Source: Nitrospirota bacterium (GTDB lineage Bacteria > Nitrospirota > Nitrospiria > Nitrospirales > Nitrospiraceae). Taken from it: a stretch of 64,000 nt of DNA. The notes below the pieces were generated by a model. It had not been told where the DNA came from. It saw nothing but the letters and a program-made list of their open reading frames with translations, and did no database searches. Location: assembly GCA_040755395.1 (NCBI GenBank), contig JBFMAX010000012.1:1-64000 (forward strand), given 5' to 3'. The translations under genes were made by a program, and so were the position numbers. Each line of letters begins with the position of its first letter. Positions within the stretch are counted from its first letter, which is position 1. Of the stretch, positions 34,188 through 41,483 are shown piece by piece.

Positions 34188-35792
34188 CTACGTGGGTAAA
34201 AGTCCGAGGGGTGACAGCGGTGCACTATGGCACGGCGCTGAACGACTCTCCGCTTCGGGCTTGATCAAAGGTCGCTTCGGCTCGTTTCCCCTTGCCCGAT
34301 GCATCTTCTCGCGAGTGTGATAGGGAATGAGCCCTTCCAAGACGCGGGGAAGTTTTTCGCACGGGACGTCTTCCAAAATCTTGAGGGCCACTTTGGGGTT
34401 AGGACCGGAGCAGCCACCCACATAGACATCCACGGCATCCACGACGTGCCCGTCGACTTTAGCCTTCTTGCCAAGCAATCCGATGTCGGCAACCAGGTGG
34501 TTCCCGCAACCGGCTGGGCAGCCGGACCAGTGCATCGTGATCGGCTTGACCCCATCCCTTAGGGTTGCTTCCAGCGCCCGTGCCGTTTCAACCGCCCTAC
34601 TTTTTGTCTCGATCACAGCCAGGTTGCAATAATCATTGCCGACACAACTCACGAGTCCCTTTCGGATGGGCGATGGATTGTAGGCAAACTGCGCGACGAG
34701 CGGCTCTTCCGCGAGGGCTCCCACTTTCCGATCCGCCACATTGGGAATGATCAGCGCCTGAGCGGGAGAGAGCCGGATCTCTCCTGTGCCGTATCGCTCG
34801 GCGAGCGCGGCGATGTTCTGAAGATCGACCGCCGCGATGCGTCCGACGGCCACCTTGAGCCCTACGTAGTTCAAACCGGCTTGCTTCTGGCGGTAAATCC
34901 CCACGTGATCGTTCGTGGCGCTCCTTCGGGCGTCGATGCCGGCCGGCTTCAGCGATCGTCCAAGGCGGGCCTCAACCTCATGGCGAAAGCGTGGTTCGCC
35001 CCAGTCCTCCAAGAGAAAGGCCAGACGCGCCGCATTGCGTCTCTCGCGTGGCCCGAAATCGCGATAGAGGTGGATGATCGTCCGGCATACCTCAAGAACC
35101 TCACCTGGCGTCACGAAGATATCGAGCGCACTGGCGATCCGGTAGCCTCCGGAGCCCAACTTACCTCCGGCCAGGACATTGAAGCCATACACTTTGTCGC
35201 TGCCGACTTCCCGATAGGCCGGAACAAGAGCCAGATCCTGCGTCTCCAGGTGAAGGCAATTATCCGGGCATCCCGTGACGGCGATGTTGAACTTGCGCGG
35301 CAAGTTCGTATAGGCCCGGTTGTCGAGGATCTCCTGTGTGAGAGCGGTGACCTCCGGTGTGGCATCCAGGGTCTCGTCCGGACTCAGTCCTGCCACCGGG
35401 CAGGTCATGATGTTGCGGACGTTATCCATACCGGTTTGCAAGGAGGTCAGTCCGACGTCATCCATCCTCGTGAAGACGGCTGGCACGTCGTTGATCCGGA
35501 TGTGCCGAAGTTGCACTTGCTGGCGAGTCGTCAGATCAAGCACGCCGTTCCCATAGGTCGAGGCAATCTCAGCCAATGCGCGCAGCTGATACGAGGTGGT
35601 TCTGCCGCCCGGAATCCTGACCCGGATCATAAAGAGGCCCGGTGTCGGATTGCGGAGGAACAGGCCGCACCATTTCAGTCTCTGGATATCGTCTTCCGAG
35701 ATCGCTTCCCATCCGGTTTGGGCGTAGTGTGCGATCTTGGCTTTGACGTCGAGGCCGTCGCATTCGTGTTTCATCGCTTCGATCTTGTTCAT
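34188..35792 (-). CDS. nirA: Ferredoxin-type siroheme nitrite reductase NirA
   Basis: This 534-residue enzyme reduces nitrite to ammonium using six electrons from ferredoxin. The [4Fe-4S]/siroheme ligands are visible as Cys383-x5-Cys389 (SCVGNDYCN) and Cys425-x3-Cys429 (WSGCPAGCGNH). The NIR/SIR half-domains are repeated (TTRQQVQLRHI, then LSPAQALIIPN). TGCPDNC near 174-179 is also characteristic. The last about 40 residues are basic and low-complexity and look like an extension. It is the last gene of the minus-strand operon NarK - PII - molybdoenzyme. Confidence 0.93.
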   Translation of the reverse strand: MNKIEAMKHECDGLDVKAKIAHYAQTGWEAISEDDIQRLKWCGLFLRNPTPGLFMIRVRIPGGRTTSYQLRALAEIASTYGNGVLDLTTRQQVQLRHIRINDVPAVFTRMDDVGLTSLQTGMDNVRNIMTCPVAGLSPDETLDATPEVTALTQEILDNRAYTNLPRKFNIAVTGCPDNCLHLETQDLALVPAYREVGSDKVYGFNVLAGGKLGSGGYRIASALDIFVTPGEVLEVCRTIIHLYRDFGPRERRNAARLAFLLEDWGEPRFRHEVEARLGRSLKPAGIDARRSATNDHVGIYRQKQAGLNYVGLKVAVGRIAAVDLQNIAALAERYGTGEIRLSPAQALIIPNVADRKVGALAEEPLVAQFAYNPSPIRKGLVSCVGNDYCNLAVIETKSRAVETARALEATLRDGVKPITMHWSGCPAGCGNHLVADIGLLGKKAKVDGHVVDAVDVYVGGCSGPNPKVALKILEDVPCEKLPRVLEGLIPYHTREKMHRARGNEPKRPLIKPEAESRSAPCHSAPLSPLGLLPT

Positions 35793-35895: not shown

Positions 35896-37140
35896 TCAGC
35901 CTCCGAAGACCACTTCCATTCTGATCCGCCTCGGTTGGTCTAGAGCTAACTCTTCCACCGGCGGTGCCCACGCCAGCGTCCATCGCCGTTGATGCACCGC
36001 TATGGCGGCCCGGCAACCAAGCGCAATGAACGCAAACACGAGAAATCCCGCTCCATAAGAGCCGGTCAGGTCCTTTAGCGCGCCGAGCAGGGAGGGAAGG
36101 AAAAACCCTCCGACTCCGCCCGCCGCTCCGACGATTCCGGTGACGACGCCGATCTGGCCCGCGAACCGCTGGGCTACCAATTGAAAAATCGCGCCGTTTC
36201 CCATGCCCAGCGCCAGCATCCCGAGAAACATGAGACCCACGACCGGATACAATGGGGGCAGGAGGCCGACACACCCAAACAGGACGGCGATGAACCCGTA
36301 GAGGAGCCTCAAGAGCCTGAGCCCGCCCGCTCGATCGGCGAGGAAGCCCCCGACCGGTCTGATCAGACTCCCGGCGAAGACGCAGAGCGCCGTCAGCATT
36401 CCGGCTTGGACTGCCTCCACGTCATATTGGTCGTGGAAAAAGATACTCAGAAAGCTGGCCAGTCCGACGAACCCGCCGAACGTGACGCTGTAGAAACCAC
36501 AGAACCACCACAGGTCTGGCTCCCGGAGAACTGTGGCCGCCCGCGGAGGCGTGCGGGGAGGCACTTCACGAGCGAGAAGCAAAAAGGCGATGAGCGTCGC
36601 CAGCACGGGGAGTATGGCGAGCCCGAATACGCCATGCCATCCGATTCCATCAAGGTGAGCCACTCGCGGAGCCACCAGAACGGCAATGATGGTCCCGCTG
36701 TTACCCGCCCCGGCGATGCCCATTGCGAGCCCCTGATGCGCCAATGGATACCACCGGCTGGCCAGCGGAAGCGCGACCGCGAAGCTCGCCCCTGCGACTC
36801 CCAGAAGAAGGCCGAGCCCCAATAATTCGGGAAAGCTCCCAGCCGCCCGCCAGCCCCAGAGCAGCGAAATAATCACCACCGACAGGCTCCACGCGCCGAT
36901 GCGCTTCGGGCCAAACCGATCTGTCAGGACTCCAATGAGGATCCGCATCGCCGCCCCGCTGAGGAGCGGCACAGCCACCATCAGCCCTTTCTGGGTCGGG
37001 GACAATTCCAAATCCTGAGAGATCAAGACCCCCAGCGCGCCGATCAAGACCCACACCATGAAACTCACGTCGAAATAGAGAAAGGCCGCCAACAGCGAGC
37101 CGGGGTCGCCGCTCCGAATCCCCGCGATCAGCTTCTTCAT
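35896..37140 (-). CDS. NarK/NasA-type nitrate/nitrite MFS transporter
   Basis: This 414-residue protein has 12 predicted spans. It shows the MFS loop motif GVLTDRFGPKRIG and glycine-rich helices, GIAGAGNSGTIIAVL and GNGAIFQLVAQRFAGQIGVVTGIVGAAGGVGG, that match the nitrate signatures of NarK/NasA. It is placed 20 bp after the PII gene and before nirA. It most likely imports nitrate or nitrite for assimilation. Confidence 0.9.
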   Translation of the reverse strand: MKKLIAGIRSGDPGSLLAAFLYFDVSFMVWVLIGALGVLISQDLELSPTQKGLMVAVPLLSGAAMRILIGVLTDRFGPKRIGAWSLSVVIISLLWGWRAAGSFPELLGLGLLLGVAGASFAVALPLASRWYPLAHQGLAMGIAGAGNSGTIIAVLVAPRVAHLDGIGWHGVFGLAILPVLATLIAFLLLAREVPPRTPPRAATVLREPDLWWFCGFYSVTFGGFVGLASFLSIFFHDQYDVEAVQAGMLTALCVFAGSLIRPVGGFLADRAGGLRLLRLLYGFIAVLFGCVGLLPPLYPVVGLMFLGMLALGMGNGAIFQLVAQRFAGQIGVVTGIVGAAGGVGGFFLPSLLGALKDLTGSYGAGFLVFAFIALGCRAAIAVHQRRWTLAWAPPVEELALDQPRRIRMEVVFGG

Positions 37141-37160: not shown

Positions 37161-37478
37161 CTAGAGTTCCCGCTGTCCCGTTCGGATCGTATAAACTTCC
37201 TGGACCTCCTGAACGAAGATCTTCCCGTCGCCCGGGTGGCCGGTATGGGCGCTGTCTTTGATCGTCTGCACGGCCCGTGGACAGTCTTGATCCTCGACCA
37301 CGAGCATGACCATCAGCTTGGCAAGCTCGGAATAGGTCACCGATCCGACCTGAATCCCGCCCTGCCGGCCGCGCCCGGTCACCGGGAACTTAGTCAGGGC
37401 ATAGAAATTCTCCTTTTCTAGCGCGGCGATGACATCGTTCTCTTTCTCTGGGCGCAGAATCGCGAAAATCCTCTTCAT
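37161..37478 (-). CDS. PII-family regulator (NifI/GlnB-like)
   Basis: This 105-residue PII protein has strand KRIFAILRPEKENDVI, the T loop VTGRGRQGGIQVG and the C-terminal signature GHPGDGKIFVQEVQEVYTIRTGQ. The T-loop tyrosine used for uridylylation in GlnB is absent, and the loop is closer to NifI-type proteins. PII proteins bind ATP, ADP and 2-oxoglutarate. It lies between the molybdoenzyme-PII fusion and narK in the same operon, so it probably senses nitrogen status for this locus. Confidence 0.92.
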   Translation of the reverse strand: MKRIFAILRPEKENDVIAALEKENFYALTKFPVTGRGRQGGIQVGSVTYSELAKLMVMLVVEDQDCPRAVQTIKDSAHTGHPGDGKIFVQEVQEVYTIRTGQREL

Positions 37479-37501: not shown

Positions 37502-38632
37502 TTAGCGCACAGTCACACGGTCGTATTCGGCTGCGCTGATGCGGACGGCATCAGCGACTTCCAACACGAATATTTTTCCGTCTCCAAAGTGACCGGGGCC
37601 GCTCCGGTTGGCCCGGATCAAGGCCTCGATCACCTCGGCAACCATTGCCTTCTCGATCACCATCATAAAAAGCAGTTTCGGAAGGAATCGGATCGCCGGG
37701 CGGTTTCCGATCTGGGCTCCAGCCGATGGAAATCGCAGCCCCCGCTGTCGACTTCGACCCATCACCGGCTGTGCGCTGTAGGCCACAACGCCGATCTGTC
37801 GTAAGGCCCTCTGAGTCGCCGCTCGCTTGTCAGGTCGAACAACCGCCATGACCTCGCACAGCGAATCAGAGCGGCTGAGGTGTTCCTCTACGACCGTCAG
37901 GTGAGAACTGAACACTGTGGCCTCGACGGCCGGGGCATTCGGCTGTCGCATCACCGCATCAATTGGTGTTTGACGGACCGATGCAACCATGGACTCTGCG
38001 GGGTCGGCCGCACGGCCCACCGGTTGCTCTATCCCGAATCGTTTCTTCCATGACGCACTGAGTTGTCCAGTTCGACTCTGGCCGAGCAGACGCTTGATGC
38101 CTACCGGGTTGTGACGGTACGCCTTAATGGCGCCGATCCATTTGACGCTCTTATAACCCTGAAGAAAGGGCACTACCAATCGCAGCGGTCCTCCGTACTG
38201 GTTCGGAAGCGGGATGCCGTTCAACATGGTTGCCAGCAGAACTCGCGGATCTCGCGCCTCGTCTCGCGATAAGGCTTCGAAATACATCCCATCACGGGAC
38301 GCAAGGGCGTAGTATCCCTCCGGATGGGTGTCAATCTTGAGGTGATCGAGCGCGTCCACCAGCCTGATGCCTCCCCATTCGACCGTTTCGGACCAGTTGA
38401 AGATCTGACAGACCAGCGGGGCCTTAAGTGAGACAAAGGGCAACGCGGCCAGGTCATGCCAGGTAATTCGTCGAGGATGCTGGTCTAGACCACAGATCTC
38501 GATGCCGAGCTCGTGAAGCGTCGTCTGCGGCGGTACGGGATACAAGGACAGCACCGGCAGAGGATCGGCCTCGAAATCCATCACCGCGAACTTATCCGCG
38601 AACTTGGGATAGTTCACTCCTTCTCTCTTCAT
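37502..38632 (-). CDS. SUOX-fold molybdoenzyme fused to a C-terminal PII domain
   Basis: This 376-residue protein is a fusion. Residues about 35-175 match the molybdopterin domain of the sulfite oxidase family, with the probable molybdenum ligand Cys75 in PLVCQIFNWSETVEWGG and the cofactor-binding stretch NGIPLPNQYGGPLRLVVP. After a linker, residues about 257-366 form a PII domain that mirrors the free PII next door: EVMAVVRPDKRAATQ, the T-loop-like VMGRSRQRGLRF and HFGDGKIFVLEVADAVRI. No signal peptide is present, so it is cytoplasmic. It heads the operon with PII, NarK and NirA. I infer a PII-gated molybdoenzyme of nitrogen metabolism, possibly a nitrate reductase. The reaction is unproven. 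Confidence 0.85.
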   Translation of the reverse strand: MKREGVNYPKFADKFAVMDFEADPLPVLSLYPVPPQTTLHELGIEICGLDQHPRRITWHDLAALPFVSLKAPLVCQIFNWSETVEWGGIRLVDALDHLKIDTHPEGYYALASRDGMYFEALSRDEARDPRVLLATMLNGIPLPNQYGGPLRLVVPFLQGYKSVKWIGAIKAYRHNPVGIKRLLGQSRTGQLSASWKKRFGIEQPVGRAADPAESMVASVRQTPIDAVMRQPNAPAVEATVFSSHLTVVEEHLSRSDSLCEVMAVVRPDKRAATQRALRQIGVVAYSAQPVMGRSRQRGLRFPSAGAQIGNRPAIRFLPKLLFMMVIEKAMVAEVIEALIRANRSGPGHFGDGKIFVLEVADAVRISAAEYDRVTVR

Positions 38633-39848: not shown

Positions 39849-40308
39849 CCCGGTGAGTCGTCCCGATCAGTCGAACGTCAACGGCAATGGGCTGGGTACC
39901 TCCGACCCGCTCGAATCGTCGATCCTGGAGAACGCGCAGCAGCTTGACTTGGGTAGTGACGGGGATGTCCCCGACTTCATCGAGAAACAAGGTGCCTCCG
40001 TGAGCTTGCTAGAACCGCTCTTTTCGCAATCAAATCGACCCGGTAGAGGCGCCAGGCTCAGGGCCGAACAGTTCACTTTCCAAGAGGGTCTCGGCTACCG
40101 CGGCACAATAGAGCGCCAGAAACGGACCGTTCGGCCTCAGGCTTGCCGTAAGAATCGCTTTCGCCACAAGTTCTTTCCCAGTCCCGCTTTCGCCCGCAGC
40201 AATATTGTTGCGTCGCTCTGACAGACCAGCCGAATGGTCCTGTAGGCGTCGGACATCGCGTAGCTGCGTCCAATGAGTGTCATAATCCCTGACGGTTTGG
40301 ACTTCCAT
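39849..40308 (-). pseudogene. Fragment of a sigma-54 activator AAA+ domain
   Basis: The minus strand encodes, in broken frames, [14 protein letters not shown], then LLESELFG and later [23 protein letters not shown] and GTTHR. These are in the order of an NtrC-type AAA+ domain. There is a stop within RF-stop-QAHGG and a frame change. Both the N-terminal sensor and the C-terminal HTH are missing. It is a dead remnant next to the IS3-like copy. Confidence 0.8.
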
Positions 40309-40479
40309 TGGGGCGTGCGACTATCGCTCATCAAACAATTATGGTCAGGTTCTGTCCCGTCCAAACGCTATGGGTGCCTCGAGCGTCCTGGATGGATAGT
40401 CGATTATACTGCTCCCCTCTAAGACAACGGCCAACTGAACTCAGTAAACTGAGGCTGATCCACCAGGGAGGGATGAGCC

Positions 40480-40752
40480 ATGAAGCGACGGAAGTGGGAC
40501 GCGAAAACCAAACCCACCATCGTGCTCGAAGGCCTCAAGGGCCAATCGGTCACAGCCATCTGTCAGGACTACCAGATCAGTCAAGCACACTCTTACTAGT
40601 GGCGTGATCAATGTCTCTCAAACGCCCCCAAAGCGTTTGAGGTGGCCCAGCAAACGGAGTGTGACGCGCGGCTCCAACCTGAGAACGCCTGGCTGAAAAA
40701 GTTGGTCGAGGAGCTCCCGCTGGAGCTCAAAACAAGCGACGAAGAGGCCTAG
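40480..40752 (+). pseudogene. IS3-type orfA with internal TAG
   Basis: From ATG at 40480 (GGGAGGG upstream) the frame encodes an IS3 orfA HTH: MKRRKWDAKTKPTIVLEGL, then GQSVTAICQDYQISQAHSY. The TAG at 40597-40599 stands where relatives have YYQWRD, so CAG to TAG is likely. The coding capacity continues WRDQCLSNAPKAFEVAQQ to a stop at 40752, with the leucine-zipper-like end. Confidence 0.75.
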
Positions 40753-41480
40753 CCAGGAGCGGGCACCGCTCGCCGACGGTCGACCAGCGCCATGCGCCGG
40801 TGCTGGTACGAATCGAGGCGCTGAACGCGGAGCAGCCGTTTGGGGGCTCTCACCGGCTGGGGGCGCACCTGCCTTGTGCGGACGGGCTGGCCGTCAACAA
40901 GAAGCGCCTCATGCGGCTGATCCGAGCGCAGGGCTGGATCGTGACAGGCAATCCCCGGTGGAAGGCGACCCGGACGCCGATGCGCAGTCAGCCGGGGCCC
41001 ACGGCTCCGAATCGGTGGTGGGAGATGGATATGACCACGGTGATGGTGAAGCCGGTCGGCTGGGTCTACCTCGTCCTGGTGTTGGACTGGTACACGAAAC
41101 AGATCGTGGGGTCTTCTGCCGGCCTCCAAGCCAAGACATCGCGCTGGCTGGCCGCGTTGGCAATGGCAGTGCAGCGCCCGTTCCCCAACGGAAGCCGCGA
41201 TCAGGAGCGGCACCGCATGAGTGATACCGGCTGTACGCCCCCGGCCGTCGCGTTCATGAAGGCCTGTGCGACGCTCGGCCCCACGCCCGCCTTCACGCGC
41301 GACTACACCCGGAGGAGAACGCGGAGACGGAACGGCTCATGCGCACGCTCAAGGAAACGCTGCGTTGGCTCCGTGACCGGACCAGCCGGCCACAATTGGA
41401 GCAGGCGCTCGGGACCTGGATCGCAGGTCCAACACGCGGTATTGGCATTCCGCACTCGGGGATCGGACACCGTGTCAGAT
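40753..41480 (+). pseudogene. IS3-type orfB integrase with frameshifts
   Basis: The DDE transposase core is recognisable: PFGGSHRLGAHLP, LMRLIRAQGW, NRWWEMDMTTVMV with the first Asp, and LVLDWYTKQIVG with the second. The frame breaks near 41300: the continuation TERLMRTLKETLRWLRD with the catalytic Glu region is in another frame. It breaks again near 41430, where NTRYWHSALGDRTP is in the third frame. The element is inactive. Confidence 0.75.
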
Positions 41481-41483
41481 TGA

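Follow-up and report, generated by a model that had tools for sequence, protein, structure and literature searches.

A probable SUOX-family nitrate reductase with a built-in NifI2-type PII domain, encoded beside a NifI1-type PII in Nitrospirota

The window, a stretch of 64,000 nucleotides from a Nitrospirota genome, carries on its minus strand an operon in the order SUOX-PII fusion, free PII, NarK-type transporter and NirA-type nitrite reductase. The fusion gene (37502..38632) reads from 38632 to 37502 as a single uninterrupted frame of 376 codons with an ATG start, giving a protein of 376 aa, and many stops interrupt the plus strand across the same positions; homologues with this architecture occur in other genomes. 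Pfam found two domains in the translation and no others. PF00174 (Oxidored_molyb), the SUOX molybdopterin domain, covers residues 34-174 (38111..38533, minus) with an E-value of 3.2e-24 and 85.8 bits against a cut-off of 24. PF00543 (P-II) covers C-terminal residues 260-367 (37532..37855, minus) with an E-value of 3.8e-14 and 53.3 bits against a cut-off of 25. PF00384 and the Mo-co dimerisation, cytochrome b5 and FAD/NAD domains are absent from the protein by the same search. The SUOX domain, at about 206 aa, has no haem, FeS or flavin, and the N-terminus, MKREGVNYPKF, shows no signal peptide. With the translation and both Pfam scores far above their cut-offs, the 376-codon frame of SUOX and PII domains described in an earlier note on this DNA is borne out, and the pairing of the two Pfam models in one protein, for which that note suggested a search, recurs in other Nitrospirota genomes.

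An AlphaFold2 model with 33 family members as input has two folded parts. They are joined by a low-confidence linker (about residues 207-256; 37865..38014, minus) that is disordered at residues 214-253, where pLDDT is below 50, and unconserved in the alignment of fused relatives. Over residues 10-160 of the SUOX part pLDDT is mostly 80-96, and Foldseek matched this part with a probability of 1.00 to chicken SO, SorT, YedY and the Pichia nitrate reductase fragment; the PII part matched GlnK1 (2j9d) with a TMt of 0.73.

The free PII gene, 23 bases past the fusion gene, encodes 105 aa (37161..37478, minus; PF00543 8.8e-24, 84.2 bits), and so the separate PII that the earlier note had seen next door is confirmed. 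It is followed by the NarK-type nitrate/nitrite MFS transporter (35896..37140, minus; PF07690 2.5e-41), which scores 271 bits with TIGR00886, slightly below the cut-off of 311.7. The NirA-type ferredoxin nitrite reductase (34188..35792, minus; PF01077/PF03460) has no flavin part and scores 562 bits with the ferredoxin-nitrite reductase model NF007125, slightly below the cut-off of 594.

A scan of species genomes for relatives returned 40 loci, and a profile survey covered 396 Nitrospirota genomes. Cys75 (38408-38410) occupies the molybdenum-ligand position of SUOX proteins, as the earlier note had it: Cys stands in its column of the alignment in 35 of 36 other SUOX proteins and is invariant in 33 family members. 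The Cys loop, C-x4-W with no insert, looks closer to that of MsrP than to that of plant nitrate reductase. This more MsrP-like loop implies that the substrate is not readable from sequence, and active-site residues were set aside as a way of deciding it; the lack of the sulfite-oxidase insert likewise gives the family no close tie to eukaryotic nitrate reductase. In the SUOX tree, in which no eukaryotic sequence was included, the family is united in a single clade (100/99; stem 1.46), to which neither MsrP nor the other SUOX groups of these genomes belong. L077 sits on a long branch, and its placement is unsure. This protein (L077 3-1118, from a Polyangium MAG) is a divergent SUOX relative with a Rieske [2Fe-2S] domain fused N-terminally, an arrangement that hints at an electron route to the Mo centre.

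By sequence, the solved structures nearest to the SUOX part are sulfite oxidases and YedY. Membership in MsrP, SorT or SoxC was rejected because the NCBIfam scores fall far below cut-off (48.1 bits against 207 for MsrP). The fusion resembles MsrP (YedY) in its bacterial SUOX domain and short Cys loop, but lies in a separate clade, has no signal peptide and has no MsrQ in its operon. SUOX-fold nitrate reductases occur in plants and fungi. With these assimilatory enzymes the fusion shares the SUOX Mo domain, the ligand Cys and the proposed step, and the Pichia enzyme (2bih/2bii) is a fold match to its SUOX domain; it differs from them in the small size of that domain, in having no Mo-co dimerisation, cytochrome b5 or flavin domain and no insert after the Cys, and in carrying PII. 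Eukaryotic nitrate reductase is described as confined to eukaryotes, with its origin in their own SUOX (excerpt of PMC6400420). NasA, NasC, NarB and mycobacterial NasN have equal operon partners (NarK or NrtABC, NirA or NirBD) and an equal proposed role, but are by description other enzyme types, NasN being a diflavin enzyme (excerpt of PMC11001197), whereas the fusion belongs to the SUOX family.

Across the relatives, NirA or NirB-NirA lies beside the SUOX family in 32 of the 40 loci. Of the remaining eight, four run into a contig end and one, L059, has NrtABC-type genes. Where NrtA/B/C-type ABC genes occur, as they do in some loci, NrtB scores above the cut-off of the nitrate-permease model, the ATPase falls just short of the nitrate model and the binding protein is NMT1_2. 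A moaA homologue is found nearby in L043, L049, L067, L068 and L069, and no sulfur-metabolism gene recurs beside the SUOX family in the clusters seen. NirBA proteins of more than 1000 aa (L046 5388-8642, L050 7615-10674, L138 7797-11015) join a NirB-type NADH flavoprotein with a BFD [2Fe-2S] domain to a NirA-type sirohaem reductase, and might supply electrons to the SUOX enzyme as well.

We then consider what else in these genomes could reduce nitrate. The window genome (4.1 Mb, 100% complete) encodes four PF00384 proteins, namely a formate dehydrogenase, two of NuoG type and one FdhF/YdeP, together with four PF00174 proteins besides the fusion. Whole-genome profile searches found in it no Nas/NarB, Nap or Nar enzyme, no PF02738 (the Mo domain of the xanthine-oxidase family) and no NarG/NxrA-like protein, the NarG model giving weak side matches alone. 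The NasC cut-off was reached in none of 39 related genomes; only G098 came near it, with 826 bits, and the SUOX protein of that genome is L077. G066, G068 and G073 have NasC-like proteins of 525 bits. Two of these were tested as hidden Nas enzymes, L093 (G066) and L051 (G073), and both scored below the NasC, NapA and Fdh cut-offs. At L051 (1333-6586), just 5' of the SUOX operon, a 761-aa molybdopterin oxidoreductase is accompanied by DmsB/DmsC-like domains and MobA/MOSC genes; this DMSO-family protein may itself act on nitrate or formate, and it counts against the nitrate reading of the SUOX protein. A further nitrate reductase may be present in two genomes: in G068, where a different protein (L092) resembles Nap, and in G063, whose L098 exceeds the NapA cut-off. 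In two Elusimicrobia neither PF00384 nor PF02738 gave a match and PF00174 gave a single protein, which is the SUOX family member, with nirA and moaA beside it. Absence in any one genome is weak evidence because most are incomplete MAGs, but the pattern of a missing standard nitrate reductase across the related genomes is strong.

The clearest case is G116, a single contig of 2,559,538 bases that groups with a MAG labelled Leptospirillum in the PII tree. Its operon runs fusion, PII, NarK, NirBA, PII, MoaA, MoaD, MoaE, MoeA, MoaC and Mog. The genome has one PF00174 protein and no PF02738, its one NasC-like match is NuoG beside NuoH, and the fusion is its only molybdenum-enzyme candidate within these searches. 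The Moco genes of this operon point, indirectly, to a bound molybdopterin. No mobA was seen among the operon genes, which fits the molybdopterin cofactor without nucleotide that the SUOX family uses.

These observations bear on a different account of the operon, in which external nitrite is assimilated and the SUOX protein acts on sulfite, a sulfoxide or an N-oxide, or serves as a nitrite-handling side enzyme. NarK-type carriers move nitrite as well, but some operons have NrtABC-type transporters. Sulfite oxidases and YedY as nearest solved structures, and MsrP, SoxC and SorT as NCBIfam matches, would suit such an account; those matches are all far under cut-off, however, the family stands as a long-branched clade apart from MsrP and the other SUOX groups, and sulfur-metabolism genes are not among its recurring neighbours in the clusters seen. 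G350 has the fusion operon together with a 1149-aa Nar/Nxr-like protein; it is perhaps a nitrite oxidiser, and it is the main odd case for the nitrate reading. A nitrite oxidiser need not reduce nitrate. For Nitrospira with NXR, which live on nitrite, NirA suffices (excerpt of PMC12342949), but the window genome shows no NarG/NxrA-like protein, and G116 keeps Moco genes in the operon with no other molybdenum enzyme found. We consider this account unlikely. Nitrate, favoured over sulfite and sulfoxide by the operon context and genome content, is instead very probably the substrate of the SUOX domain, a choice that the earlier note had left open. Manganitrophus enrichments were grown with 1 mM nitrate as nitrogen source (excerpt of PMC9040806), which is consistent with nitrate but not decisive because these were mixed cultures.

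Turning to the PII domains, the best solved matches of the fused and the free PII are chains G and H (5.3e-27), respectively, of one PDB entry, 9p1x. This entry contains the nitrogenase alpha chain (NifD), identified by a search with an alpha-chain sequence used as a probe alone, and comprises 6 alpha, 6 G and 12 H chains. We built a maximum-likelihood tree of 81 PIIs, limited to 114 columns, with a hand-entered E. coli GlnB row and 9p1x as the sole complex of its kind. In this tree the fused PIIs and the separate first PIIs group with 9p1x_G (99/98), the free second PIIs group with 9p1x_H (100/99), and the canonical GlnB group, including the GlnB of the window genome itself, stands apart. This implies that the fused domain is a NifI2-type PII and the free protein a NifI1-type PII, and an ordinary GlnB-type PII is ruled out by the same tree. 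Besides the canonical GlnB (L001), the window genome (G000) encodes a divergent PII (L006) and four more short PII-like proteins without the GDGK motif (L002, L004, L007 and L008). The chain counts of 9p1x suggest trimers in which one NifI2-type chain joins two of NifI1 type, and for our proteins a fusion-only trimer is less likely than a mixed one made of one enzyme-borne PII and two free PIIs.

Ligand positions were compared across 16 fused PII domains, using canonical numbering. Q39, G87-D88-G89 and R101 are present in all 16, K58 and K90 are Lys or Arg, and T29 is Thr or Ser. The phosphate-contacting arginine R103 is Ser or Asn in every one, and the uridylylation Tyr51 is absent. The nucleotide and 2-oxoglutarate positions are thus largely kept apart from R103, where the earlier note would have taken a lack of nucleotide-binding residues against its reading, and the residues make ligand binding by the fused PII plausible, though possibly altered.

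NifI1 and NifI2 occur in methanogens and some bacteria. The pair in the window is like them in being two PIIs that adjoin the gene of their enzyme and group with the 9p1x chains, and unlike them in lying beside nitrate-assimilation genes rather than nifHDK, in having one PII fused to the enzyme and in having Ser or Asn for R103. NifI1,2 inhibits nitrogenase directly by blocking the NifH site on NifDK, and the block is reversed by 2-oxoglutarate, Mg and ATP (excerpt of PMC9765008). In mycobacteria, PII lowers nitrate-reductase activity (excerpt of PMC11001197).

The fused PII could also be a non-switching part of a nitrate reductase, tethering it to NarK, an ammonium channel or NirA, or holding three catalytic domains together. 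The long, poorly ordered linker and the loss of R103 would suit a tether, and PII proteins bind transporters elsewhere (excerpt of PMC6603209). The clade to which this PII belongs is, however, the NifI type, which is known for blocking an enzyme directly (excerpt of PMC9765008), and the ligand positions other than R103 are conserved in the fused set. Moreover, a NifI1-type partner, which a mere tether would not need, comes directly after the fusion wherever the contig continues. We regard a purely structural role as quite unlikely.

Several relatives carry signs of the transcriptional control known from nitrogen fixation. A sigma-54 consensus with 10-11 of 11 matches was found 5' of the SUOX start in 12 of the Nitrospirota loci examined (L039, L043, L044, L046, L050-L054, L057, L138 and L139), at most 140 bases from the start in 11 of them; as a control, 2 of 400 random 500-base stretches reached 10 matches. 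The regulator upstream in L050 (5180-6835) passes the NifA equivalog model with 587.9 bits against a cut-off of 528.85. With a NifA-model activator standing before nitrate-assimilation operons, the range of NifA-type regulators here extends beyond nitrogen fixation. Related sigma-54 activator ORFs lie 5' of SUOX in L052, L053, L054 and L057. The sigma-54 promoter is absent from the window operon and also from L042 (9 matches), L045 (8) and L137 (8). A sigma-54 activator fragment of 92 aa (40030..40308, minus; PF00158 5.7e-17) sits 1.4 kb 5' of the window fusion, near an integrase-domain fragment. Over 53 aa it is 64% identical to the L050 regulator, which makes it a probable remnant of the NifA-type activator seen 5' of the relatives' operons. 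The truncated activator adjoins an integrase-core (rve) fragment, and the two (40030-41483) are probably remnants left by a mobile element. With no sigma-54 promoter and a truncated activator, the window copy may be under other control.

The fusion itself is intact in at least 14 distinct genomes, comprising the window, L039-L047 and, outside the 40-locus set, G116, G237, G260 and G350. They belong to three phyla, Nitrospirota, Lindowbacteria and, with one MAG, Acidobacteria. Among the 396 Nitrospirota genomes, 15 have the SUOX family, and in 9 of these 15, the window genome and G116 included, the fused frame is long (376-406 aa). The aligned fused relatives show 51-54% identity. The L064 fusion is partial, at a contig end. 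Two further copies are interrupted by sequencing error or decay, with an in-frame stop in the PII part in a Troglogloeales MAG (L048 7895-7897) and frame breaks in a complete Manganitrophus genome (L061 6854-8110). These interrupted copies might suggest that the fusion arose by faulty assembly or sequencing, or that the gene is in decay, and the earlier note had guarded against two genes joined by a sequencing error. All of this can be dismissed with near certainty because the frame is intact in so many genomes of three phyla, among them one on a single contig.

The PII tree unites the fused domains in one clade (100/95), which suggests a single fusion event and then spread. In Chloroflexi and Elusimicrobia, the PII of fused type is a separate gene immediately 5' of SUOX. 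Several other Nitrospirota have it as a gene of its own 3 kb downstream, past the nitrite reductase and in tandem with a NifI1-type PII, and in some related loci no PII of fused type was seen nearby. Every fused locus with a continuing contig has, as in the window, a second, shorter PII directly after it. No close homologue was found on a plasmid: every match stayed below 60% identity and short of 80% query coverage.

Taken together, the locus is likely to encode a SUOX-family assimilatory nitrate reductase with a NifI2-type PII built in and a NifI1-type PII free in the next gene. NarK would bring nitrate in, the SUOX Mo centre would reduce it to nitrite in the cytoplasm, and NirA would reduce nitrite to ammonium. 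The fused PII would trimerise with two free PIIs. Under nitrogen plenty (low 2-oxoglutarate), the trimer, held at the enzyme by the flexible linker, would close off either the active site or the place where the electron donor docks. MgATP and 2-oxoglutarate would release the PII trimer, a putative switch direction proposed by analogy with NifI1,2 on nitrogenase. We infer that control of the fusion by 2-oxoglutarate is fairly likely. The earlier proposal of a molybdoenzyme switched by its own PII therefore stands as the best-supported reading, with a NifI2-type rather than a generic PII and with a mixed trimer preferred to one formed by the fusion alone. More broadly, we lean, if only by a little, toward several phyla having an undescribed SUOX nitrate reductase run by a nitrogen-fixation kit (NifA-type activator, sigma-54 and NifI1/NifI2), each with an off switch controlled by 2-oxoglutarate in the fused clade.

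The earlier note knew of no described example, and we found none either. Within the passages retrieved from open-licence PMC papers on Leptospirillum nitrogen genes, Nitrospirales genomes, Manganitrophaceae, molybdenum enzymes, eukaryotic nitrate reductase and PII, there is no description of this enzyme, of a PII-molybdoenzyme fusion or of NifI-type PIIs in nitrate assimilation. One review counts three prokaryotic nitrate reductases, Nar, Nap and Nas, and places in the SUOX family plant nitrate reductase and uncharacterised single-subunit cytoplasmic bacterial enzymes (excerpt of PMC7759655).

If the nitrate reading is true, nitrate assimilation is routinely missed by annotation limited to DMSO-family Nas/NarB. 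The taxa affected would be Leptospirillum-like bacteria, Manganitrophaceae and other Nitrospirota, SAR202 and other Chloroflexi, and Elusimicrobia. The SUOX fold would then have been turned to nitrate in bacteria and not in eukaryotes alone. Direct inhibition by PII, known for nitrogenase, would apply to the other principal path to ammonium as well, and with the fused form the blocking of an enzyme by a PII trimer could be measured in a one-chain system.
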